The notes under the pieces: model-generated
Told to the model about the DNA's origin: nothing
Databases searched by the model: none
The model's input: the letters and a program-made list of their open reading frames with translations, nothing else
Shown: positions 4,492 to 36,859 of the stretch, piece by piece
Position numbering within the stretch: position 1 is the stretch's first letter
Layout of the letters: each line of letters starts with the position of its first letter
Virus record (IMG/VR): IMGVR_UViG_3300023184_000264
Span: 1-40,037 of that record
Strand: one strand, 5' to 3'
From: a virus
Length of the DNA: 40,037 nt
Translations under genes and position numbers: made by a program

Positions 4492-7400
4492 ATGGCTAAT
4501 CCTTACAATGACCCTCGTTACGCAATGGCTCAAGCCATGCGTCAACAAAAACAGGCTTCACTTGCTCCAACTCCTTTAGGACCTGCTCCTAGTGCTTCGG
4601 CTGTTGCATATGGACGTCAAGCTAGCAATATGGCTGCTTCTAATCCTAGTTTGCGTGATGCTATTGCTGCTATTGGTCAGGGTAAAAAATCTGCTGCTCC
4701 AAAGGGTGGCATTATGGGGACTGTTCTTGGCAATCCAATTGCTCAGGGCATTTTAAAACCATTGGGTGTTCTTGCGTTGCCAGGTAAAGCTGTTGTTTCA
4801 ACTCTTCGTGAAGGTCTTGATGCTATTGATGGTAATCCAAATACAAAAGCGTCATTTAGTGATTTAACTAAACAAATTAAGGATCCTGGTTTTGGGTTTG
4901 GTAAAGCATTCCATATTGACACTGGAAATAAATGGCTTGATCGTGCTATTGGACTTGTTGGGGATGTCGCTACTGACCCTATTACTTATGCAACTTTTGG
5001 TGCTGGTAAATTTGCTGGTTATGCTGGTAAACTTGATCTCGCTGAAGCTGTACTTAAACATACTGGTGATGAGGCTCTTGCTGCTGCTGTTGCTCGTAGT
5101 GGTCGTGCTGCTATTAAGAGTGAAGAGTTGTTGACTCAACTTGGTGCTAATCGTCATGGTTTGTATATGTTTGGTAAGCGTCTTGAAGTTGGAAAGATGG
5201 GTCAGGGTTTACGTATTCCTGGTACTGGTGCTATTGGTCAGATGACTGAAAATGGTATTGCTAAACTTCGTTTACTTGGTTCTGAAACTCGTTTGGGTGC
5301 TTTTGTACAAAAAATTACTTTGCCTGCTGACGATCTTGCTGCACGTCAAGCTTTGTTGCGTGGTACCACTGCTGGTGGTGTACCTATTTCCGATAAAACT
5401 AGTGCTGCGTTAATTGGTTATTTCACTGCTAATCCTTTGCAGCGTAGAATCACTGGTGAAGTTTTGCAAGCTGAACGTCAGAATCTTATGCAGATTCTTC
5501 AATCAGAAGGTGCACAGGGCCTTAATGCCTACAAGGATACTATTTATAAGTATCTTGAAAATCCTGCTTTGTTGGCATCTGCTCCTGCTGATGTTCAACG
5601 TGCTGCAGAAGTTTGGGGTGCTGGTTTTTTTCATTCATATGAAAATAAGATTGGTGAGTCTTTAAAGGCTGTTGATCCCGCTGCTGATTTTAAAGCCGTT
5701 ACTGATTATTTTCCACATATACAAACTGACGAAGCTATTGCTTATCGTGCTAATCCTAATAGTCCTCATGCTCGTGAGTTGAATACTATTTATGCTCGTG
5801 ATCCTATGGAGGGTGGTAAGAACTTCAAGACTCGTACTATGCAAGAAGGAGACATGTGGTTTGGACACAAGTTAACTATTGAAGATATTAAGAGTACTGA
5901 ACGTTTAAATGAACTTGCCAATGCTGGTGGGTTTACTGGGAACTTTTTTGAGACAGATATTTCTAAAGTTGCTACTCGCTATGTAGAAGAATATGCTAAG
6001 GAAGCTGGTGTTATTGCCAAGCATCAACATCTTGCGGATGCTGGTTTTTGGGATCGTGCACAGGCAGTTGAGATGGGTACATCTTTTGTCGATGGTGAAC
6101 TTGTTAAGAATGTTAAAAAGAATGTTGCGTCTATTTCTTCTGATTTGCGAGATGCACATAATAATCTTGCTAAATCTTGGCTTGGTTTATCTAGTGCTGT
6201 TACGGAACATCAAGTTGCTTTGACTAAGCAACTTGCTGAATTAACGTCTCCTACTGGTGCTTTGGGTTCTAAGGAGTTGTTGCTTTCTACTGAGGCTGCC
6301 TTGAATGATATTCTTTCTAGTTCTATGAATATTGGTGCTGATCAACTTAGTTTAGTTGGTGCTGCTATTGGTACTTCTAAAAACAAAATGGCTGAATTAT
6401 TTGGTTACACATACAAAGCTGGAAAACTTGTTGCTAAGGATACTGGTTTAGAGGTTATTGATTCTCCTCATGTTCTTGGTGGTTTAACTAATTATTTAGA
6501 TAATCTTCAGCAAGAAGTTTTACAACTTGAACATTCTATGCGTCCTTTAGAGTCTGATCTTACTGGTCAAGCATTGCAGGATGTTTACAAAACTTCTGAA
6601 GTACAAATGAAGTTGTTACAGCAAAAACTTGAACAAACTAGTGCCAAGGTTGAGCAAATTGTTGCTTTTGGTAATCAACTTGAAGATTCGCTTCAAAAGG
6701 TTATTAATGGAGAAGTTGTTGGTAATGTCAGTACTGATGTTACCAATATTCTGGGTGTTATTGGCGCTGATGGTGTTCTTAGTAACTCTCATGCTCGTGA
6801 ACTTATTGGTGGTCAGTTTGATATTGGTCAATCTTTACAACAGTATCTTACTGGGGTTGTAAATAAAGATGGTGGTTTGTTTCAGCAATTAACTAGTGTT
6901 ACTCCTTTGGCTAAGGATACTGTTACTAAAATGCCAATTAGTTCTTATTATGATAATATTGCTAAAGTATTTACTGGTGAAATGGCATTTAATGATGTTC
7001 GTTCTATGGGTATTTTTGCTTTGCTTAATGATTCTCGTTTATATGGGCAAAATATTCCTGGATTTTTACAAAATGTTAGAGAGGAATTAATTACTCAACT
7101 TAGACAGGCTGATGAAGTTCAGTCTATTTTGAAAGATATTGCTTCTCAACAGCAAGCTGGTGGTCGTCTTACTGCACGTAAACTTTTTGAATCACAGATT
7201 ACTCCAGCGTATGATAGAGCTTTGTTGTATACTGAACAATCTAAAGGCATGACTGATTGGCTTGGTAAATTTAAGTCTACTGAAATTGGATTGAAGAGTT
7301 TGGATTCACCTATTGATTGGTCTGTTGTTGATAAGTATGTTGAAGCTAATCCTTGGTTGGCTGATTTTACTCCTACTGCTTCGTATGGTTCATCTATTGA

Positions 7401-10400
7401 GGACTTAATGGGTTCAAATGTTCCTAACTCGCAGTATCTTGCAGATAGGTTAAGTAGTTCAGGCGCTCCTCAGTTTACTCCTCCTGCAACATATGGTGAA
7501 TTAGTTTCTCAAGTTGAAGAAGCTCTTTACAAGAAAGAACTTCTTCTTAATGAAAAGTTCTTTGAGTTTGGTAGTGGTGTTGGTGCAAAATCTTATACAG
7601 GTAAGGAACTTGTTGATACGCATGCAAAGATTCAAAATATTAATGATGAGATTCAAAGACTGCGTTCAAAGAAGGCTAGTGGATTAAAATCACGACTAGA
7701 AAATCTTGGATATAACAAACAAGATATTGGAACTGTTGCTGGCCGTGAGCAGCGTGCTGCGATTGCAGAACAAGCTAAATTTACAGCTTTGTCTAAAGAA
7801 GATTCAGCTAAATATGCACAACTTGTACAAATGCGTAATGAGTTAACTGGTGGTGGAACTCGTATTAATCCTAACTGGTTTGTTGATGGAACAACATCAC
7901 GCAAAGCTTTGGGTAATGCTTTAACTAATTATACTATGGTTTCTGAAGTAAACTCTCGTTGGGCTGCTGTGACAGCAATGCTCGGTGTTCATGGTGTTGC
8001 ACCAACTGAAAGAATGTTTACGCAAATTACTGAGAATGTTGGTAATAAATTTATTCCTGTTATTGAACAAAGTTTGCATGATTCTCGAAATGCGATTGGA
8101 ATATTAACACGTCTTGATGCTGAAATGGCTGCAAAACTTTCTGAAGGTGGTGCTGGAGTTTCTGCTGGTAAAATTTTTGCTGACCATATGAACTCTTTAT
8201 CTGTTCAAGAATATGATACACTTGCTTCGGCTATTGGACATAAAAATATGGCTACTGGTGATGCTTATGCAATGCGTCGTGGACGTCTTGATGCTATGAA
8301 GCTTGGTACAACTCCACAAGAAAAAAGAGCTCTTGAGAACAAATATCTTGAAGAAACTGTTCGTCCTTGGTATGAATCTGCTTTCCCAGGAAAAAAGGTT
8401 TCTAAAGAAAATATGAAAACAGCTCTCAAGTCTGAATCTAAATCTTCTGCAAAATCTGCTCGTGCTACCATGATGACTGCATGGTCTGAAACTGCAGATG
8501 CTTCTATGGTTAAACGCTGGTTTGAAGATCAGATTGGTGTATCTGCTGTTCAGGCAAAAAGCAGCATGGTTAGTGGTCGTGTTGGCGAATCTGGTAGTGA
8601 ATTTTCTACTCGTGTTGTCAGTGGACATAATGTTTTGGATGTTAAGATAAAGAATCTTCAAGAAGCTCGTATACGTTTTAAACGCATGCTTTCTCCAGAT
8701 ATGAATATTGCAGAATTTTTTAATGATCCTTCTGCTGTTCAACGTACACCAACCTTTTATGCGTATATGCTTCAAAAAGAAGCAGATACTCTAGCTGAAC
8801 GTATTGCCGTTAAAGAATCCGCCACTGGTTCTGCTGGTGTTATTGTTGACAGATTAAAATCTGCAAAAGCTACTGCTGCTACTTATAAATCTGAAGCTGA
8901 TTTACTTGCTGCTGGTGTTAAAGTTCCAGATAATTTTGTTGCTAAACTTGATGCTATTAAACCACGTATTTCTGCTATTGAATCTGCTGACAGTGCAGTT
9001 TCTGCTGCACAGTCTAAACTTGATGATGTTGTTGGAAAAAGTAAGGAACTTCAGGATTCTATTACAGCAAAGAATGAAGCATGGATTGCTTCTGGCAAAT
9101 ACAAGGGAAAGCGTCCTTTAACAGATGGTGAAACCGCTAGTATTGCTAAGTTAAAATCTGAACTTGCTTCTGCAAAAAAAGCCGTTGCTGATACAAGTAA
9201 AGCAAGAACTGCTATTCCTAATCTATCTAAGGGTGAATCTGATTTTTATGATATTGTAAAGACTGAAATGGCACGACCAGCTCCTGAACCAGTTGTTACA
9301 CGCAAAGCTAATCCTTTAACTGGTCAAGGTCAACGCACAAAACCTGGTGTTGTTGATCGTCCTTATGCTGATCAAGCTAAGAAGAGTCTTGATGAATATA
9401 ATGCCATGATTGAAAGTACTATGCATTCAAAAGCTAAAGCTGATCAGGAAATGGTTAATGCTATTGATGCTTTGGCTGGTCATCAACTTCCTGCTTATCG
9501 TCATGGTTTTATTGACCCTCAAGGACGTGTTGTAACTTTAAAAAATGGAGAAGTTCTTACTTTTTCTGAGGCTGAACACAGATCGTTGTATCATGGTCCT
9601 GGTGGTCGTGTTCGTAATCAGGTTTTACGTGAAAATGCTGATGCTGCTATTCGTGATACTAAGAGTCAAATTGAAAAGTTAAGTGTTCTTAAACAGCAGT
9701 ATCAGGATACACTTGCTCGTACGTATACTTTAAAGTTATCTGCTACTGATGTATCTGCTTTACAACAGGAGATTGCTTCTATTGAAAGTAAACTTGTTGG
9801 TTTAAATAAAGACATTGTTGGGTTTACTATTGATAGAGAATCCGCTCTTGCTTCTACGCAAGCTATGGCTCTTGAGAAGATGCGTATTTTGGTTAATGGT
9901 TCTAAAACAAATGGTGCTGTTTTTGATCAGGCTGGTTTGTCACAATTTGCTAAGTTTGAACACCCAACTCAAGCTAATATTGTTAGTCGTGTTAGTCCAG
10001 GTAGAAACATTTTTGATTATTTTGATAAGAATCCACGGTATGGTGCTTCTGCTAAAGAAGCTACTCGTCGTCAAGCAGCAATTGCTAAAGCGTGGGCTGA
10101 AACTCCAGAGTTTAAGTATTTAGATAAACTTTCTGTTAAAGAAAAAGATGTCTTTGTTCGCATGTATCAAGATATGACTAGTAGAACTGACTCTATGCTT
10201 GCTCATCAACAAGAGTTGACTGCACAAGCTAATCGTGCTGTTGCTGATAGTGCTACTGCTGGTCATGCTGTTGTTGAAGCACAGAAATCTGTTCAAGAAG
10301 CTGCACAGCAAGCTTCTGATAGATTGGCTGTTACTACTGGATCCGCTCCTGTAGATGCTATGGGTAATCCACTTCCTCAACCTACCACTCCTTTTGAGGC

Positions 10401-12450
10401 TAAACAGTATTCTGATTCTATTGTTCAACAGGCTACTCCTAGTGGTCCTGTTATTGTTCCTGCTTCTGGTGCTGAAAATACTGTTTTGGCACAGGCTGCT
10501 GATGCTCGTGTTTCTGCTGAGGGTGCACGTAATCAAGCTTGGACGCAGACACAGCAGGCTAAAGCTAAGTTGGCTGAGTGGAACACTCCTCGTGTTGGTC
10601 CTCGTGGTGAGAAACTTCCTAGTCCTCGTGTTGAGGCAATGAAACAAGCGGAAGGTATTTATAAAGCAAAACTAAACAGAACACAAGCTGTTCAGGATGT
10701 TATTGATGCTGCAACTAATGCTCGTGAAGGCATTCGTACTAAGATTGAAATCACTTCTGGTGGTGCTGCAGAATTTATGACTGCTGTTAATAATGAACGT
10801 GAACTTGCTGCTGCTTTGAAATCACAACTTGATGAGATTGGTGTACTTGTTCGTACACTTCCACCTAAGGATGCTGTTGATGTTATGAAATCACTTTCCA
10901 AGACAAAGGGAGTTAAGTTAAGTCCTGAACGTATTGGTAATGTTTTACAAACATACCGTGATTGGTCTGTTGATAACTTCCATGTATTTGAAAAACTTGG
11001 CAATGATCCTCAAAACCCTGTATTTAAAGCTTGGGCTGCTGCAGGTATTGCTGATGCTCATCTTATTGATTTGGAACTTACACATTCACAAGAGTTACTT
11101 GCTTTGGCTGGTGCTTCTACGCCCGAATGGATTAATAGAGTTGTTACTCCAATGTCTGATGGTTATTTAAAAATTGCTAAAGAAAATGGTATGTTAACAG
11201 ATAAGAAACTTGTTGATGCACGTCGTTTTCCAAGTTTGTATGGAAATAGTGAAGCTGTTGATTTGTTGAATGGCATTGCACGAATTAATAAGCCTGGTGT
11301 TGCTATGGATCTTGGTAAATTTATGAGTGGATATACTGGGTTCTTTAAAGCATATGCTACTCTTAGTCCTGGATTTCATATCCGTAACGAAATCAGCAAT
11401 ATCTTTTCAATGTTTGCTGCTGGTGCTGATATATCTAATATGCGTGAAGGTTTTAAACTGTGGCGTATAATGGATAATCATTTTTCACAAGGTGGAAACC
11501 TTGAATCTTTTGTTAAACTTTTAAGTGATGCAGATAAAGAACTTGGTCATAATAGTGGTTCTATTATGTTAGGAATGGCTGGAGGCAAAACACAAGACGC
11601 ACTTCAGGGTTTTATGCATGAAGGAAATAAACTTACAAGCAATAGGGCTTTGAATGCTTCACAAAAAGTTGGTGGCAAACTTGAAAGTTCTGCCCATTTT
11701 ATGTTGGCTTATGATTCACTTAAAAAAGGTTTTAATGTTGACCATGCATTTAACAGAACTAAGCGTTACTTGATTGATTATTCTCAGAAATCATTATTGG
11801 ATGAAGCAATGAAAGATATAGTTCCATTTTGGATGTGGATGAGCCACAACCTGCCTTTGCAGGTTGTTAATCGTTGGGCAAACCCTAAACCATATTTAAT
11901 GTATCAGCGTGTTGTTAATAACATTAATGCTGGACAGGATAGTTCTCAAACACCAGATTATTTAAAGAATGCTATTAATCTTGGCAATAACAAATACATA
12001 AATCCTGATTTACCTTTTAGTAAAGTGAATGATCAAATTGATCAAATTACTGATCCTCGTAAGCTGTTGGGTTATTTAAACCCTGGTATTCGTGTTCCTA
12101 TTGAAATGATGACAAACGCAAATACATACACGGGCAGGCCTTATGATAAGACGTTTGTTAAACTTGATGGTGCTAGAGCTTTGTTGTTACCTTTGTTGCA
12201 GGCTGCTGGTCAAGTTAAGTATGATTCTGCTGGTAATGCTGTTGCTACTTCTAAGTCTATTGCAGCAGTTGAGGGTATGGTTCCATTCCTTGGGCAAGCA
12301 GAACGTATTAATTCTAAGGGATTTAATTCGTATATTGGTTTACCAGTTGCTACTGCTACTCCAGCACAAATTAGTGGCATGAACTTTGGTAAAATGCAAC
12401 AACTACAGGCACTTGCTGCACAGCAGGCAAACATTCAGAAAGCGAAATAA
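4492..12450 (+). CDS. Giant internal virion / polyvalent protein (2652 aa)
   Basis: A single intact frame of 2652 codons, about a fifth of the genome. The first 170 residues are low-complexity then helical with glycine-rich hydrophobic stretches (GIMGTVLGNPIAQGILKPL). The middle (about 570-780 and 1450-1950) is dominated by coiled-coil-like Lys/Glu/Ala/Gln helices. The C-terminal part holds the motifs SPGFHIRNEISNIFSMF (about 2290) and PFWMWMSHNLPLQVVNRWA (about 2444), then PGIRVPIE. That kind of Pro-Phe-Trp, Arg-Asn end is, to my recollection, typical of large polyvalent or internal virion proteins that are ejected and insert in the envelope. I see no lysozyme-type catalytic motif, so a muralytic role is not supported. 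The ribosome binding site is poor, and the start follows the previous stop by 18 bases. Confidence 0.85.
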   Translation: MANPYNDPRYAMAQAMRQQKQASLAPTPLGPAPSASAVAYGRQASNMAASNPSLRDAIAAIGQGKKSAAPKGGIMGTVLGNPIAQGILKPLGVLALPGKAVVSTLREGLDAIDGNPNTKASFSDLTKQIKDPGFGFGKAFHIDTGNKWLDRAIGLVGDVATDPITYATFGAGKFAGYAGKLDLAEAVLKHTGDEALAAAVARSGRAAIKSEELLTQLGANRHGLYMFGKRLEVGKMGQGLRIPGTGAIGQMTENGIAKLRLLGSETRLGAFVQKITLPADDLAARQALLRGTTAGGVPISDKTSAALIGYFTANPLQRRITGEVLQAERQNLMQILQSEGAQGLNAYKDTIYKYLENPALLASAPADVQRAAEVWGAGFFHSYENKIGESLKAVDPAADFKAVTDYFPHIQTDEAIAYRANPNSPHARELNTIYARDPMEGGKNFKTRTMQEGDMWFGHKLTIEDIKSTERLNELANAGGFTGNFFETDISKVATRYVEEYAKEAGVIAKHQHLADAGFWDRAQAVEMGTSFVDGELVKNVKKNVASISSDLRDAHNNLAKSWLGLSSAVTEHQVALTKQLAELTSPTGALGSKELLLSTEAALNDILSSSMNIGADQLSLVGAAIGTSKNKMAELFGYTYKAGKLVAKDTGLEVIDSPHVLGGLTNYLDNLQQEVLQLEHSMRPLESDLTGQALQDVYKTSEVQMKLLQQKLEQTSAKVEQIVAFGNQLEDSLQKVINGEVVGNVSTDVTNILGVIGADGVLSNSHARELIGGQFDIGQSLQQYLTGVVNKDGGLFQQLTSVTPLAKDTVTKMPISSYYDNIAKVFTGEMAFNDVRSMGIFALLNDSRLYGQNIPGFLQNVREELITQLRQADEVQSILKDIASQQQAGGRLTARKLFESQITPAYDRALLYTEQSKGMTDWLGKFKSTEIGLKSLDSPIDWSVVDKYVEANPWLADFTPTASYGSSIEDLMGSNVPNSQYLADRLSSSGAPQFTPPATYGELVSQVEEALYKKELLLNEKFFEFGSGVGAKSYTGKELVDTHAKIQNINDEIQRLRSKKASGLKSRLENLGYNKQDIGTVAGREQRAAIAEQAKFTALSKEDSAKYAQLVQMRNELTGGGTRINPNWFVDGTTSRKALGNALTNYTMVSEVNSRWAAVTAMLGVHGVAPTERMFTQITENVGNKFIPVIEQSLHDSRNAIGILTRLDAEMAAKLSEGGAGVSAGKIFADHMNSLSVQEYDTLASAIGHKNMATGDAYAMRRGRLDAMKLGTTPQEKRALENKYLEETVRPWYESAFPGKKVSKENMKTALKSESKSSAKSARATMMTAWSETADASMVKRWFEDQIGVSAVQAKSSMVSGRVGESGSEFSTRVVSGHNVLDVKIKNLQEARIRFKRMLSPDMNIAEFFNDPSAVQRTPTFYAYMLQKEADTLAERIAVKESATGSAGVIVDRLKSAKATAATYKSEADLLAAGVKVPDNFVAKLDAIKPRISAIESADSAVSAAQSKLDDVVGKSKELQDSITAKNEAWIASGKYKGKRPLTDGETASIAKLKSELASAKKAVADTSKARTAIPNLSKGESDFYDIVKTEMARPAPEPVVTRKANPLTGQGQRTKPGVVDRPYADQAKKSLDEYNAMIESTMHSKAKADQEMVNAIDALAGHQLPAYRHGFIDPQGRVVTLKNGEVLTFSEAEHRSLYHGPGGRVRNQVLRENADAAIRDTKSQIEKLSVLKQQYQDTLARTYTLKLSATDVSALQQEIASIESKLVGLNKDIVGFTIDRESALASTQAMALEKMRILVNGSKTNGAVFDQAGLSQFAKFEHPTQANIVSRVSPGRNIFDYFDKNPRYGASAKEATRRQAAIAKAWAETPEFKYLDKLSVKEKDVFVRMYQDMTSRTDSMLAHQQELTAQANRAVADSATAGHAVVEAQKSVQEAAQQASDRLAVTTGSAPVDAMGNPLPQPTTPFEAKQYSDSIVQQATPSGPVIVPASGAENTVLAQAADARVSAEGARNQAWTQTQQAKAKLAEWNTPRVGPRGEKLPSPRVEAMKQAEGIYKAKLNRTQAVQDVIDAATNAREGIRTKIEITSGGAAEFMTAVNNERELAAALKSQLDEIGVLVRTLPPKDAVDVMKSLSKTKGVKLSPERIGNVLQTYRDWSVDNFHVFEKLGNDPQNPVFKAWAAAGIADAHLIDLELTHSQELLALAGASTPEWINRVVTPMSDGYLKIAKENGMLTDKKLVDARRFPSLYGNSEAVDLLNGIARINKPGVAMDLGKFMSGYTGFFKAYATLSPGFHIRNEISNIFSMFAAGADISNMREGFKLWRIMDNHFSQGGNLESFVKLLSDADKELGHNSGSIMLGMAGGKTQDALQGFMHEGNKLTSNRALNASQKVGGKLESSAHFMLAYDSLKKGFNVDHAFNRTKRYLIDYSQKSLLDEAMKDIVPFWMWMSHNLPLQVVNRWANPKPYLMYQRVVNNINAGQDSSQTPDYLKNAINLGNNKYINPDLPFSKVNDQIDQITDPRKLLGYLNPGIRVPIEMMTNANTYTGRPYDKTFVKLDGARALLLPLLQAAGQVKYDSAGNAVATSKSIAAVEGMVPFLGQAERINSKGFNSYIGLPVATATPAQISGMNFGKMQQLQALAAQQANIQKAK

Positions 12451-19112: not shown

Positions 19113-19685
19113 TCAGCGTCTCTGATGGGACTTGGCGACCACCTTGTCCCACGCCGTCCAAGGCGCTGGGACGGGTGGTTTGAGATAGTCGTTGTTTTTG
19201 ATGCAGCCCCAGCCGTTAAATCCAACTGGCTGTTGAAAGTAGCCATTAGGAGCCAACCATCCATGCAACGCAATCCTGTTCGCAACAGTGATTTGTTCTA
19301 GTCGTGTTGCGAGCCATTGCTTGGGTGCAAACTCTTGTCCACCGAACCCCCGCCATGTCTGAAGAAAAATACCGAGACCACCAGCGAATTTGCCACGGTC
19401 TTTCCAATTGCTCTTAGTTTCGCATTGAGCGACCTTGTCCCAGTATTTGTTGTGGGGTCGTTTGAGTGTAGCCAGCCACGATATATCCCACTTACTACTG
19501 TTTCGTGTTTGTACTGCTTGGGTGTGGACTTGTGGTGCTTGTGTGGTAGATGTGATAAAAACATATACAAATTCTTTCTTTACTGTTGTTATGGGTGAAG
19601 CCGATGCTGGCTTGTTGTCCGATAGCCAGAAGGCTAGCATGAGGGTTAATACTAAAATGATTTTAAGTATAGTAGATTTGTTCAT
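19113..19685 (-). CDS. Secreted Rpf-like transglycosylase
   Basis: A 190-residue protein with GGAG seven bases before the ATG. Residues 1-29 are a signal peptide: basic start, hydrophobic core IILVLTLMLAFWL, and an ASA|SP cleavage site. Residues about 80-162 match the resuscitation-promoting-factor/transglycosylase domain: WDKVAQCETKSNW with catalytic E89, GGLGIFLQTWRGFGG, the Q/A-rich helix, and GFNGWGC, with C88 and C161 a likely disulphide. Rpf enzymes cleave peptidoglycan and, in Actinobacteria, help dormant cells resume growth. Here it is encoded in the leftward (early) block, separate from the endolysin. It could act in lysis, wall remodelling or waking of dormant hosts; which one is not visible. 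The domain assignment is confident. Confidence 0.87.
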   Translation of the reverse strand: MNKSTILKIILVLTLMLAFWLSDNKPASASPITTVKKEFVYVFITSTTQAPQVHTQAVQTRNSSKWDISWLATLKRPHNKYWDKVAQCETKSNWKDRGKFAGGLGIFLQTWRGFGGQEFAPKQWLATRLEQITVANRIALHGWLAPNGYFQQPVGFNGWGCIKNNDYLKPPVPAPWTAWDKVVAKSHQRR

Positions 19686-19927: not shown

Positions 19928-19943
19928 CTTTACAGGTGTAAAG
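19928..19943 (-). promoter_or_regulatory. Operator copy E
   Basis: CTTTACAGGTGTAAAG on the plus strand: 7-bp arms around a 2-base centre. It is one of five identical copies (others at 22991, 24132, 24714 and 25202), all with GG at the centre on the plus strand, so all share one orientation relative to leftward transcription. It precedes the 77-residue gene and the Rpf-like gene. It is likely bound by a dimeric phage regulator. Confidence 0.85.
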
Positions 19944-19946
19944 TTT

Positions 19947-20501
19947 CTAAAAGGGTTCAGGCGCAACGGATTCAGGTAGCGTATACAGGTTGTCCTCCAC
20001 ACGACCAGACAAGTAAGTACACACACTAGACCTAAGGCTTGACCAAAGCAGTTTGGTTGAGCGTTCTCTGTACTCGTCAGCAAGTTCACGCCACATCATT
20101 TTAAATGTTTCACGGTCTAGTTCTGGCAAAGACCACACAGAGTCGTTATATTCTGATTTGTGCATTAACTCTTTGTGTGTTTTAACAATTTCCCAGTCTG
20201 CGTCAAACACATTAACATCTCTAGCCATGTTGTTCCACATAGACATTGCGTTGTGCATTGTTAATGGATCTGTATTCACATAATTAATGTTACCCAAACC
20301 TTCCGATACTGTTGTTTGTATCGTGCGTACACGACCACTACAGAATAAGTCCTCGTTTTCTGTGCTGAACTTGTCTGCTTGTGTTCGTACACCGTCACGA
20401 ATAAGGGCTAGTGCGTGCCGTTCTATTTCCCATTCTGTAATGTCGGTGTCTGACGAGTCAATAGTTAATTCTATTGTCATGCTGATTTGATATGATTTCA
20501 T
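19947..20501 (-). CDS. Hypothetical protein (184 aa)
   Basis: A 184-residue acidic protein with AGGAG seven bases upstream. The N-terminus is a beta hairpin (MKSYQISMTIELTIDSSDTD) and the middle is helical with Trp (EIVKTHKELMHKSE, MMWRELADEYRERSTKLLW). Its stop lies three bases from operator copy E. It is the last gene of the amidoligase sub-operon. Family not recognised. Confidence 0.7.
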   Translation of the reverse strand: MKSYQISMTIELTIDSSDTDITEWEIERHALALIRDGVRTQADKFSTENEDLFCSGRVRTIQTTVSEGLGNINYVNTDPLTMHNAMSMWNNMARDVNVFDADWEIVKTHKELMHKSEYNDSVWSLPELDRETFKMMWRELADEYRERSTKLLWSSLRSSVCTYLSGRVEDNLYTLPESVAPEPF

Positions 20502-20800
20502 TTGTTTCTCCTAAGTAGGTTTCTTTTTTGTTTTGGATACCACGAGCAGTAATACACGCAGTACATTTTGTCTGTGTCAATGACTAGGTTGTTGCCGTCG
20601 TCATAGACAAGTGGATATGCCGTAACGCTGATACGATTGTCGTCTACCCAAAGATTAACATCTTCCCTGTTCATAGGGTTGATATCTTTCATGTTGTATG
20701 TATCCCACACATCATCGTATTCGCTGTACTTGTTTTTTGATTTCCATTGCTCAGCCATTTGTTCAGCGTAAGCATAGATGTCTTTATGTTTATTTCTCAT
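20498..20800 (-). CDS. Hypothetical protein (100 aa)
   Basis: A 100-residue protein with a strong AGGAGG. The N-terminal 30 residues are a basic/aromatic helix (KHKDIYAYAEQMAEQWKSKN), followed by an Asp/Tyr-rich beta part (VDDNRISVTAYPLVYDDGNN) and a basic Arg/Lys tail. ATGA overlap couples it to the next gene, and it follows the glutamine amidotransferase by 9 bases, so it may be part of that module. Function unknown. Confidence 0.7.
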   Translation of the reverse strand: MRNKHKDIYAYAEQMAEQWKSKNKYSEYDDVWDTYNMKDINPMNREDVNLWVDDNRISVTAYPLVYDDGNNLVIDTDKMYCVYYCSWYPKQKRNLLRRNK

Positions 20801-20809
20801 TGTTCCCTC

Positions 20810-21763
20810 CTAGAAGAACCAATCGTTAGTAGAGTCGTAGTTGCCTTTAGTGTGTGACGGCACATACAGTTGGGACTCACGATAGTCGTCAACAATGTCA
20901 GACTGCGCACCCATGCATCTACACAACATGCGTGGCTCTGAACAGAACCAACAGCAGTCGCATTGTGAACACAGGTCAGCATAGTTTACATTCTGCTCGT
21001 TGATGTACTCAATGTGGTCACAATTGGCACAACGCCATAGTTCACCCCACACCTCATTACCGTCATTGTCAATGTATGTACAATCCTCAACAAGTAAAGA
21101 CTGGTTGTCCCACATGTCGTTGTCGTATGTTGTCGGAGTGTAATCTTTTGGTGTTTTACTAGTAGATGACCAGCCAGTAGTGTACATGCCAGACCCTGAG
21201 TAACTGTAACGGTCGTACTTGTAACTATTGTTTGACCACCACACACCATCAACCCAATGCCCATCGTTCTCGTTGATGATGTAATAGTCATCTTGAACAT
21301 CAGGATTAGCAGATAGGAAAACAAGTTTAGAACCGTCAGCGAACTTAGATAATTTCTTGCGTGTTTTCTTACTGTTAAGTGTTGATGCACCACCCCAACT
21401 AGGGAATAGTTCCTTAGCAAAGATGTGCGTGTCACTCATACCGTTGCGAGCCGCAATCGGCAACATGCCGTTGTGTGCTACAACCGTGTTAATGTCCTTG
21501 CCAATCTGAAACGGGTGACAGTTGTTAATGTTAGTACCACCGTGTGTGGTAATTCTGGAGTGAAACAAAGCAGGACCAGAATGAATTGCTCGTGTCTTGA
21601 GGAAGTTATCCAACACGGCATCAAAGTTGAGCCCACTACCTTTCACAATATGTGTACCAGCATGAACAGCGTAACCAAACCCGTCAGGATTGTTTACAGC
21701 ACCAATAGCCAACTCATCCGTGTCCGCTGTTGTGTACTCCTGCATGAATGTCAATAGACACAT
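20810..21763 (-). CDS. Class II glutamine amidotransferase with Cys-rich C-terminal domain
   Basis: A 317-residue protein. It starts MCLLTF, placing the nucleophile C2 directly after the initiator Met, with no propeptide. Class II (Ntn) GATase motifs follow: NPDGFGYAVHAG, FHSRITTHGGTNIN (R70), and VVAHNGMLP (N98, G99), close to GlmS numbering. These enzymes release ammonia from glutamine and hand it to an acceptor site. Residues about 170-215 are Tyr/Ser/Trp-rich linker; residues 245-283 contain nine cysteines (CANC, CSQCDCCWFC, CRC) likely binding zinc. AGGA sits eight bases ahead of the ATG, inside the end of the amidoligase gene. The adjacent ligase is the obvious partner; the substrate is unknown. 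Confidence 0.87.
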   Translation of the reverse strand: MCLLTFMQEYTTADTDELAIGAVNNPDGFGYAVHAGTHIVKGSGLNFDAVLDNFLKTRAIHSGPALFHSRITTHGGTNINNCHPFQIGKDINTVVAHNGMLPIAARNGMSDTHIFAKELFPSWGGASTLNSKKTRKKLSKFADGSKLVFLSANPDVQDDYYIINENDGHWVDGVWWSNNSYKYDRYSYSGSGMYTTGWSSTSKTPKDYTPTTYDNDMWDNQSLLVEDCTYIDNDGNEVWGELWRCANCDHIEYINEQNVNYADLCSQCDCCWFCSEPRMLCRCMGAQSDIVDDYRESQLYVPSHTKGNYDSTNDWFF

Positions 21764-21765
21764 TC

Positions 21766-22953
21766 TTATATTCCTTTCGCTGTGGCGTAAGCGTCAAATG
21801 CTTCGTAGCCGTTTTGTTTTGTCCATTGACGGAAACGATCCCAGTCATGACTCTCTTTAATTTTGATGTTGTACATTTGACTGATGCTGTACTCCGCTAC
21901 TGCGTGTACTGCTTCCAGTCGTGCTTGAATAGTTTTGGGGTTGAGCGTACCCTTAAAGAAACGCAACTCTAATGTGTGGCGTGGCTGTAAGTTAAGCGCA
22001 ACATATCTGTCGTTGTTGCATTGTCTTGGTGAGCCAGGGCGCAAGCCCTTGGCGTAACGCAACATTTGCGTAGCCTCAAAGTCATCCCATTGTGCGTATG
22101 TTGAACGGCTACGACCAGCAAGTGTTTTCCATTCCTCGGTGTTGCGATAAAACATAGACATGAAACGATACAAAGATGATGACCTCTCCTCAAAGAATCC
22201 CTTGTTGATGTGAACATGAAGCCCACAGGTTCTTGTAGTAGCAGAACGCATACCAATGTCAGACAACTCACGCAATCGTGCGAGTGGTAATACATTTTGT
22301 ATGTACTCCTTAGTCATGGGGTGAGATACAACCTCAAACCCATTGCTAAGAGAACCGTCATGCTTGAGATAACAAGAGTCACCAAAGATTTCTGTAGCAA
22401 GTTCAGCACCCTCGTTGATGTCGCAACCGTCTGCTTCCATTTCCAACTCAAAACCAGTAACGCTGATGCGTCGTGGCTCTCGCATGGTGACAAACATCTT
22501 GCTGTCCTTGGTTAGAACATCAGTACGCATACCATGAAAGATAGGGTCAGGACGGAAACTGTAGTCATGAATGAGTCGTGAACCTTCTTGTTGTTCATCT
22601 TCACATGAACATTCAGGTCCGTTGTCAATATGATAAACACCGTCACAGTATTCACAAGCACCGTACTGGTCGTAACACGATTCGCATCGCATCTCGTCCC
22701 AACCAATGTCCATCATGGTGTCACGCTCTACATACGATTGGCAGTCGCTACAGTATGTGTATTCGTCGTCGCAATCTGAACAAAAGTATTTAGCGTTACC
22801 TGTTGCTAATGCTTCATAGATGTCTTGGCGTCGCCAGTATGATGTGTTCTCGTCAAGACGAATAACTAATGCTGATATTAGATGGTCGTCCTCGCAGATA
22901 CAGCACTGGGCTAAGTTGCTTGGTGGCTCTGTTGTTGTTTCTTGTGTTGTCAT
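21766..22953 (-). CDS. Amidoligase (Amidoligase_2 type) with N-terminal Cys-rich domain
   Basis: A 395-residue protein, first gene after operator copy D, with a strong AGGAGGG ribosome binding site. Residues 17-118 carry about 15 cysteines in C-x-x-C pairs (CCIC, CSDCDDEYTYCSDC, CESC, CEYC, CSC), a zinc-binding array. The COOH-NH2 ligase core follows: GFELEME (167-173), D199 with GFEVVSHP (E207, H211), CGLHVHI (243-249), RYVALNL and LELRFFKGT (E329, R331). This is the glutamine-synthetase-like fold that ligates amines to carboxylates using ATP. Known relatives occur beside GATase II genes and are proposed to modify peptides or cell-wall components. I infer that the pair makes an amide on an unknown substrate. 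Confidence 0.87.
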   Translation of the reverse strand: MTTQETTTEPPSNLAQCCICEDDHLISALVIRLDENTSYWRRQDIYEALATGNAKYFCSDCDDEYTYCSDCQSYVERDTMMDIGWDEMRCESCYDQYGACEYCDGVYHIDNGPECSCEDEQQEGSRLIHDYSFRPDPIFHGMRTDVLTKDSKMFVTMREPRRISVTGFELEMEADGCDINEGAELATEIFGDSCYLKHDGSLSNGFEVVSHPMTKEYIQNVLPLARLRELSDIGMRSATTRTCGLHVHINKGFFEERSSSLYRFMSMFYRNTEEWKTLAGRSRSTYAQWDDFEATQMLRYAKGLRPGSPRQCNNDRYVALNLQPRHTLELRFFKGTLNPKTIQARLEAVHAVAEYSISQMYNIKIKESHDWDRFRQWTKQNGYEAFDAYATAKGI

Positions 22954-22990: not shown

Positions 22991-23006
22991 CTTTACAGGT
23001 GTAAAG
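22991..23006 (-). promoter_or_regulatory. Operator copy D
   Basis: CTTTACAGGTGTAAAG, 37 bases ahead of the amidoligase start. Between it and the ribosome binding site the leftward strand is A-rich (ATTTACAAGTAAAAATACAA). The site is identical to the other four copies. Its place makes it the control point for the amidoligase-amidotransferase unit. Confidence 0.85.
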
Positions 23007-35984: not shown

Positions 35985-36859
35985 TGGCTAGTTTAAGTAT
36001 TCCAAACTCATTTACAAACAACACGGTAGCCAGTGCTACTGAGGTTAACGCTAACTTTACATCTGTAAAAACTTTTGCGGAAACTGCTGTTGTTCAGGTT
36101 GATGGTTCTGTTCAGGCTCCTACTGCTGCTATTGCAAACTTAGCCGTGACAACGGCGAAGATTGCTGACTTGAATGTTACTACGGCTAAGATTGCTGATG
36201 GTTCTATTACTGTTGGTAAACTTGCTTCTGGTGTAGCAATATCTGGTCCTACAGGGGCTACGGGTGCGACTGGCGCTACGGGTCCTACTGGTCCTACAGG
36301 TCCTACGGGCGCTACAGGAGCTACAGGAGCTACAGGAGCTGCTGGTACTAACGGAACTAACGGTGCCACTGGCGCTACTGGCGCAACTGGTGCTACGGGT
36401 CCTGCTGGACCCATTACGGACTCTTTAACCATTAACCAAAACTCTGGTAGTGCTATTGGTGTGCATGTTGTTCGTGACTTGTATCAAGCAAATTATGATG
36501 CATATCGAACAACCAATGGTGCAGGCGCTATTAACTTTGCTGTTGATTATACAGGAAGAGTTTTTCACTCTGGATTGACGGCAATATCTGACAGGACAAA
36601 AAAACAGAACATTAAAACATCCGACAAAACACATTTAGTCAATGCCATTTCATTGTTGGTACCTAAAACTTTCAACTGGATAGATCACCCTGAAGAAAAC
36701 CAAGTTGGTTTTATAGCACAAGAAGTTCAAGAAGTTCTACCAATTGCAATACGTGAACACGAAGGAATACTCGGAATTGATTACAACGTACTTGTTACCG
36801 CCCTAGTAGCAAAATGCCAAGACCTAGAAACACGATTGGCAGCGTTAGAAGCTAAATAA
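35984..36859 (+). CDS. Tail fibre with collagen-like repeats and S74 chaperone domain
   Basis: A 291-residue protein. The N-terminus ([20 protein letters not shown]) is a fibre attachment type; residues about 87-143 are Gly-X-Y collagen-like repeats ([10 protein letters not shown] units) forming a trimeric stalk; residues about 195-291 are an intramolecular chaperone of peptidase S74 type: [12 protein letters not shown] with the Ser202/Lys207 dyad, [13 protein letters not shown] and a C-terminal coiled coil ([11 protein letters not shown]). The chaperone trimerises the fibre and is usually cut off before the Ser. Both catalytic residues are present. Confidence 0.92.

Follow-up and report, generated by a model that had tools for sequence, protein, structure and literature searches.

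The stretch of DNA analysed here, referred to below as the window, is the 40,037-base IMG/VR virus record IMGVR_UViG_3300023184_000264. Its gene content comprises podovirus-like structural genes and a minus-strand block on the replication side. The structural half of the genome contains an ORF of 2652 residues (4492-12450), for which there were no PHROG matches. On the minus strand, two ORFs lying 2 nt apart encode a predicted amidoligase and, after it, a predicted class II glutamine amidotransferase (GATase). The features of the locus are as follows.

22991-23006, no strand assigned: CTTTACAGGTGTAAAG, a site resembling an operator, which precedes the ligase start by 37 nt.
21766-22953, minus strand: amidoligase, 395 residues, first gene of the module (Amidoligase_2 match, AlphaFold2 model, Foldseek).
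22603-22905, minus strand: Cys-rich array at the ligase N-terminus, residues 17-117, presumed to bind zinc and weakly LIM/treble-clef-like.
21880-22476, minus strand: GS-like catalytic core of the ligase, residues about 160-358 (GFELEME, DGS..GFE, CGLHVH, ELRFF).
20810-21763, minus strand: class II GATase, 317 residues, second gene (GATase_4 match, Foldseek).
21218-21763, minus strand: Ntn-hydrolase core of the GATase, residues 1-182 (C2, R70, N98, G99, D111).
20915-21031, minus strand: eight-Cys module at the C-terminus of the GATase, residues 245-283, presumed zinc module.
20498-20800, minus strand: ORF of 100 residues, sharing a unit with the ligase and GATase, not a conserved part of the module.
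19947-20501, minus strand: ORF of 184 residues, likewise in the unit and not a conserved part of the module.

The site CTTTACAGGTGTAAAG is present in five exact copies in the window, starting at 19928, 22991, 24132, 24714 and 25202, and in six when one mismatch is allowed (the copy at 36055), against 0.05 expected. The exact copies all fall in the minus-strand early region, and the sequence is likely to be a phage operator. Both the copy number relative to chance and the position of one copy 37 nt before the ligase bear out the preliminary description, which had placed the module behind an operator. The next copy downstream of the ligase site (19928-19943) is located just past the 184-residue ORF, and the two flanking sites therefore delimit the ligase, the GATase and the two small ORFs as one unit, as had been proposed and as the ORF positions confirm. 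The further suggestion that the two small proteins might be substrates or partners of the enzymes did not hold in general. Homologues of the 100-residue ORF were found in the closest relatives only and those of the 184-residue ORF in the closest relatives plus one weak match (locus L020), and the neighbourhood survey thus led both to be rejected as general substrates or partners.

The ligase matches the Pfam family Amidoligase_2 (PF12224) with an E-value of 3e-9 and a score of 37.6 bits, above the curated cut-off of 22. An AlphaFold2 model built with 55 relatives in the alignment reached a pLDDT of 85.8, and a Foldseek comparison of this model with the PDB identified the YbdK/glutamine synthetase (GS) fold (E 1.6e-5, probability 1.00). 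The best matches were YbdK, glutamine synthetase and gamma-glutamylmethylamide synthetase, with the depupylase Dop lower down, and the TM-scores were modest (about 0.4) because the N-terminal array was included in the model. The motifs GFELEME, CGLHVHI and ELRFFKG are positioned at residues 167, 243 and 329, respectively, and E169, E171, E207, H246, H248, R281, N321, E329 and R331 are invariant in both the distant and the deep ligase alignments. These positions correspond to the ExE, HxH and ExR motifs, which we take to be those of the GS superfamily. The ligase is therefore probably an ATP-dependent enzyme with a GS-like fold that forms amide bonds, as predicted from sequence and model. The earlier assignment as a GS-fold COOH-NH2 ligase with these motifs is upheld by the family match, the fold and the motif positions; neither of the outcomes named in advance as fatal to it, a missing GS-like site or loss of conserved residues in homologues, was found.

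The partner protein matches Pfam GATase_4 (E 4.3e-6, 26.3 bits, above the cut-off of 23), and its predicted model has a pLDDT of 78.6, with low values at residues 185-220 and at the end. Foldseek matched this model to the glutaminase domain of GlmS (E 1.1e-7) and also to PurF and EgtC. C2, R70, N98, G99 and D111 are invariant in 54 relatives of the GATase, so that the description of a class II GATase with the first four of these residues is sustained by residue position, family, fold and invariance alike. Overall, the catalytic motifs of both enzymes are unchanged across 54-55 relatives.

Each protein also carries a cysteine array outside its catalytic core. Thirteen cysteines are present in residues 1-125 of the ligase compared with four in the other 270 (Fisher p about 1e-4), and the GATase has ten in residues 226-317 compared with two in the preceding 225 (Fisher p about 1e-4). 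Ligase residues C17, C20, C58, C61, C68, C71, C90, C93, C100, C103 and C115 are 85-100% conserved in 55 sequences, and GATase residues C245, C248, C265, C268, C271, C274, C281 and C283, with the spacing C-x2-C-x16-C-x2-C-x2-C-x2-C-x6-C-x-C, are 98-100% conserved in 54 sequences. Such conservation excludes chance and indicates that the arrays are functional; together with the enrichment, it substantiates the earlier observation of an extra array on each protein. From spacing and conservation, both arrays are presumed to bind zinc. Comparison of the ligase array profile with LIM domains gave weak similarity driven by cysteine spacing (best E 0.005, to a LIM protein), and a match to the Pfam B-box fell below the cut-off. 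Similarity between the ligase and GATase arrays themselves, considered as a possible sign of a common origin, was also weak and Cys-driven, with a probability of 42-56% in profile comparison.

Profile scans yielded at least 543 relatives of the ligase in IMG/VR and at least 543 in genomes, and the best 80 of each were read, with ORFs called mechanically. In the viral set, every ligase with readable sequence beyond it is directly followed by a GATase, with the single exception of Clostridioides difficile phage AR1086 (L012 4665-5777), in which a related ligase is found without a Cys array and without a GATase neighbour. Among the best 80 bacterial loci, a GATase match is present in 73, a few of these being short fragments; two further loci end at a contig edge, one is unreadable with the frame open throughout, and in four (L156, L160, L163 and L187) the GATase was not found despite sufficient room. 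AR1086 and the four bacterial loci lacking a recognisable GATase suggest that the ligase can act alone or use another source of ammonia. Only the ligase and GATase are constant among the loci, and the other neighbours vary. Quick FastTree trees of the core domains from 120 ligase/GATase pairs agree closely (Mantel r 0.88, compared with 0.15 for the best of 500 permutations), and this agreement is also seen for the viral pairs alone (r 0.90, best permutation 0.12). The matching trees indicate that ligase and GATase travel as one unit.

The same set of pairs bears on the relationship between the two arrays, which the preliminary description had suggested might dock on each other. In 34 of the 120 pairs the GATase has no tail, and in every one of these (34/34) it is partnered by an array-bearing ligase, which rules out mutual array docking as a general rule. 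Moreover, in one tailed pair (locus L022) the ligase array is much reduced. The arrays are thus not obligate partners of each other. With the exception of L153, the tailed GATases group as a single clade in both trees, at a support of 0.72 in the GATase tree and only 0.31 in the ligase tree, and the members of this clade are phages and elements linked for the most part to actinobacteria. The older and general array is that of the ligase; in the simplest reading it binds the target, the GATase tail being a later addition.

The hosts of the phage groups were assigned from marker genes. In the larger group of aquatic phages, a WhiB-like gene adjoins the module in 51 loci; the WhiB-like family is typical of actinobacteria and their phages. 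The group of phages to which the window belongs has instead a gene for an Rpf/transglycosylase-like protein (window 19113-19685; PF06737, E 1.5e-13), which has an N-terminal hydrophobic stretch and is kept in the 22 nearest loci, duplicates included. This marker gene suggests actinobacterial hosts for the window's group as well. Within bacterial genomes, the 62 clostridial-type loci carry untailed GATases, often with a DUF960 gene upstream, and a resolvase, integrase, NikA or relaxase gene lies in the fetched flank of 52 of them. In loci L148-L188, from Ruminococcus and other Clostridia, untailed pairs were observed in mobile elements, often after DUF960 and near a resolvase, and one R. flavefaciens genome holds six ligase loci. 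Tailed GATases predominate in the actinobacterial loci (Nocardia, Actinokineospora, Allokutzneria, Actinoplanes and others), and the loci examined lie near TraG/TrwB, Prim-Pol or ArdC genes. In Actinokineospora (L113 6745-7668), the gene directly after the GATase is ArdC-like, of the anti-restriction type, and includes an IrrE domain, and a second ArdC-like gene is present in locus L128. In Nocardia vaccinii (L121 2-6736), three ligase genes are arranged in tandem on one contig, the third of which could be read with its GATase.

A full match to the tailed GATase was found in only one of 395 genomes of the actinobacterial class, namely the starting genome. The other 394 gave short matches alone, mostly within long ORFs of GlmS/PurF size, and a housekeeping amidotransferase was ruled out on this basis. 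The sporadic presence of the module, and its neighbouring conjugation, integrase, resolvase and relaxase genes, indicate that it is mobile and accessory rather than housekeeping. The copies from actinobacterial genomes group with mycobacteriophage Marvin in both trees (support 0.96 and 0.99), which implies exchange between phages and conjugative elements. Absence from ordinary chromosomes and sharing between phages and conjugative elements make a role in metabolic housekeeping unlikely. Known anti-phage defence systems were also considered and rejected, as the PADLOC profiles gave no match beyond a chance-level one.

Phage amidoligase/GATase pairs are already known from phiEco32, LUZ24, Marvin and the OM43 phages. 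By direct tblastn, the pair was located in gut phage contigs, in the OM43 phages MEP401/402 and in Mycobacterium phage Marvin together with its cluster. Among the closest known counterparts is gp105/gp106 of Marvin, a cluster S siphophage of M. smegmatis, which has the same two genes in the same order with both Cys arrays at about 30% identity, although its ligase has a longer C-terminus. The window pair shares all the hallmarks of the Marvin type, being adjacent, ordered ligase then GATase, and Cys-rich in both members. The Marvin records give only the annotation 'glutamine amidotransferase domain protein' and leave the arrays unmarked. The Methylophilales (OM43) phages MEP401 and MEP402 encode an adjacent amidoligase and GATase (gp06/gp07), described in PMC10580990, with a Cys-rich segment before the ligase core; unlike the window protein, their GATase has no eight-Cys tail. 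The early clusters of LUZ24 (gp18/gp19) and phiEco32 also contain an Amidoligase_2 protein and a class II GATase, but the LUZ24 ligase lacks a Cys array and its similarity is marginal (E 3e-6 to 2e-3 in a three-sequence search). Both clusters add ATP-grasp and gamma-glutamyl cyclotransferase genes, and LUZ24 also a second ligase, none of which the window module has. Genes for ATP-grasp and gamma-glutamyl cyclotransferase proteins are absent around the window pair and are not recurrent neighbours in its relatives, and a multi-ligase cluster of the phiEco32/LUZ24 type was therefore rejected. The GATase of LUZ24 (gp19; L211 5903-7435) also ends in CxxC...CxxC, though its ligase has no array, and this end is possibly an independent zinc ribbon.

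Beyond phages, the YbdK carboxylate-amine ligases and the GS superfamily share the predicted fold and the GxHxH and ExR motifs with the window ligase; to our knowledge, they have neither a Cys array nor a dedicated GATase partner in an operon. The glutaminase domains of GlmS, PurF and EgtC share the fold and the Cys-Arg-Asn-Gly site with the window GATase, which differs in standing alone as a subunit and in having an eight-Cys tail where the others have a fused synthase domain. Individual phages with amidoligase/GATase pairs have been on record since 2009, their function being a matter of guesswork. Iyer et al. 2009 described the pairing of the two enzymes in phages, as reported in PMC10580990 and PMC11318856. 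As far as checked, with Iyer 2009 and Mageeney 2012 known through later papers, the twin arrays, the spread of the module, the joint inheritance of its genes and its occurrence in phages as well as conjugative elements are undescribed. The twin-array form emerges as a widespread and tightly co-inherited unit, represented by over 540 ligase relatives in each of the two collections scanned. Marvin and the gut Ruminococcus elements provide tractable models in which to look for the target.

Taken together, these data lead us to favour, tentatively and at somewhat less than an even chance, a two-subunit glutamine-dependent amidoligase of phages and conjugative elements that would amidate a macromolecule bound by the array. 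In this scheme, the nucleophile C2 of the GATase would hydrolyse glutamine to glutamate and ammonia, and the GS-like ligase would use ATP to convert a carboxylate to an acyl phosphate and join it to the GATase-derived ammonia as an amide (R-COOH + Gln + ATP -> R-CONH2 + Glu + ADP + Pi); in principle, the pair would resemble an asparagine synthetase split into two proteins. The GS-like ligase may instead use an amine other than ammonia. The zinc-type ligase array would hold the target, for which a host protein or peptide, or one belonging to the element, is the most likely candidate, and in the actinobacterial clade the eight-Cys module gained by the GATase could add contacts to the target or the complex. 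Expression would be early, with replication-side genes under the repeated operator, and the benefit to the element would possibly be host take-over or protection from host factors. The chemistry and the pairing of ligase and GATase are well supported by sequence homology. A macromolecular target is suggested by the arrays, whose several CxxC pairs fit macromolecular binding, and the benefit by the distribution of the module; we also infer ammonia transfer between the subunits, zinc binding and early timing. A more specific version, in which the arrays grip a protein of the element or a host protein of defence or gene expression and the pair amidates acidic side chains or the C-terminus, is rather unlikely. 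If true, protein amidation would constitute a post-translational means of host take-over or evasion, seemingly undescribed for phages.

Several other functions can be envisaged for the pair. A cell-wall role, proposed for phiEco32 (Iyer et al. 2009, as cited in PMC10580990 and PMC11318856), would involve amidation of free carboxylates of peptidoglycan precursors (D-iGlu, meso-DAP), blocking superinfection or tuning lysis. The main carriers of the module are actinobacteria and Firmicutes, and an Rpf-like transglycosylase is encoded near the pair in the window phage. Peptidoglycan is amidated in actinobacteria and Firmicutes, a reaction carried out by AsnB/LtsA-type class II GATases. However, pairs are also present in phages of the Gram-negative OM43 bacteria, conjugative elements have no obvious need for a block to superinfection through the wall, CxxC arrays are unusual for enzymes acting on wall precursors, and no Mur-like or lipid-II-binding domain was found, so that this role appears unlikely.

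An auxiliary metabolic function has been suggested for Marvin (Mageeney 2012, in the account given by PMC10580990) and for Phage-ZRK32 (PMC10945688), whereby the pair would make or salvage a small metabolite or aid nitrogen assimilation during infection. YbdK-type ligases do use small substrates, but large conserved Cys arrays would be needless for these. Moreover, the module is found across unrelated hosts in phages, plasmids and conjugative elements, no other pathway gene being conserved nearby, and the ATP-grasp or glutathione-synthase-like and gamma-glutamyl cyclotransferase genes of LUZ24, phiEco32 and ZRK32 are missing here, making such a function quite unlikely. Modification of nucleic acids is improbable. 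In this case, arrays of the zinc-ribbon type would bind to either DNA or RNA, with amidation falling on a base that bears a carboxyl group or on a position in tRNA or rRNA. The module adjoins replication genes both in the window and in MEP402, and Zn-ribbon RNA-binding families are among the sub-threshold matches to Marvin gp105, although this resemblance is weak and due to the cysteines; the part of the window ORFs that was scanned contained no carboxylated-base gene of the QueD/E, DpdA or hydroxymethylase types. Finally, it is very doubtful that the ligase joins an amino-acid or peptide amine in place of ammonia and that the GATase fold has the activity of an amidase or transpeptidase, removing or exchanging the joined group: some class II Ntn folds are hydrolases without a synthase partner, the hydrolase EgtC is among the Foldseek matches, and the GS-like Pup ligase and Dop, the latter a fold match, act on protein isopeptides, but none of the glutamine-site residues C2, R70, N98, G99 and D111 varies, and GlmS and PurF, which use glutamine, match best.
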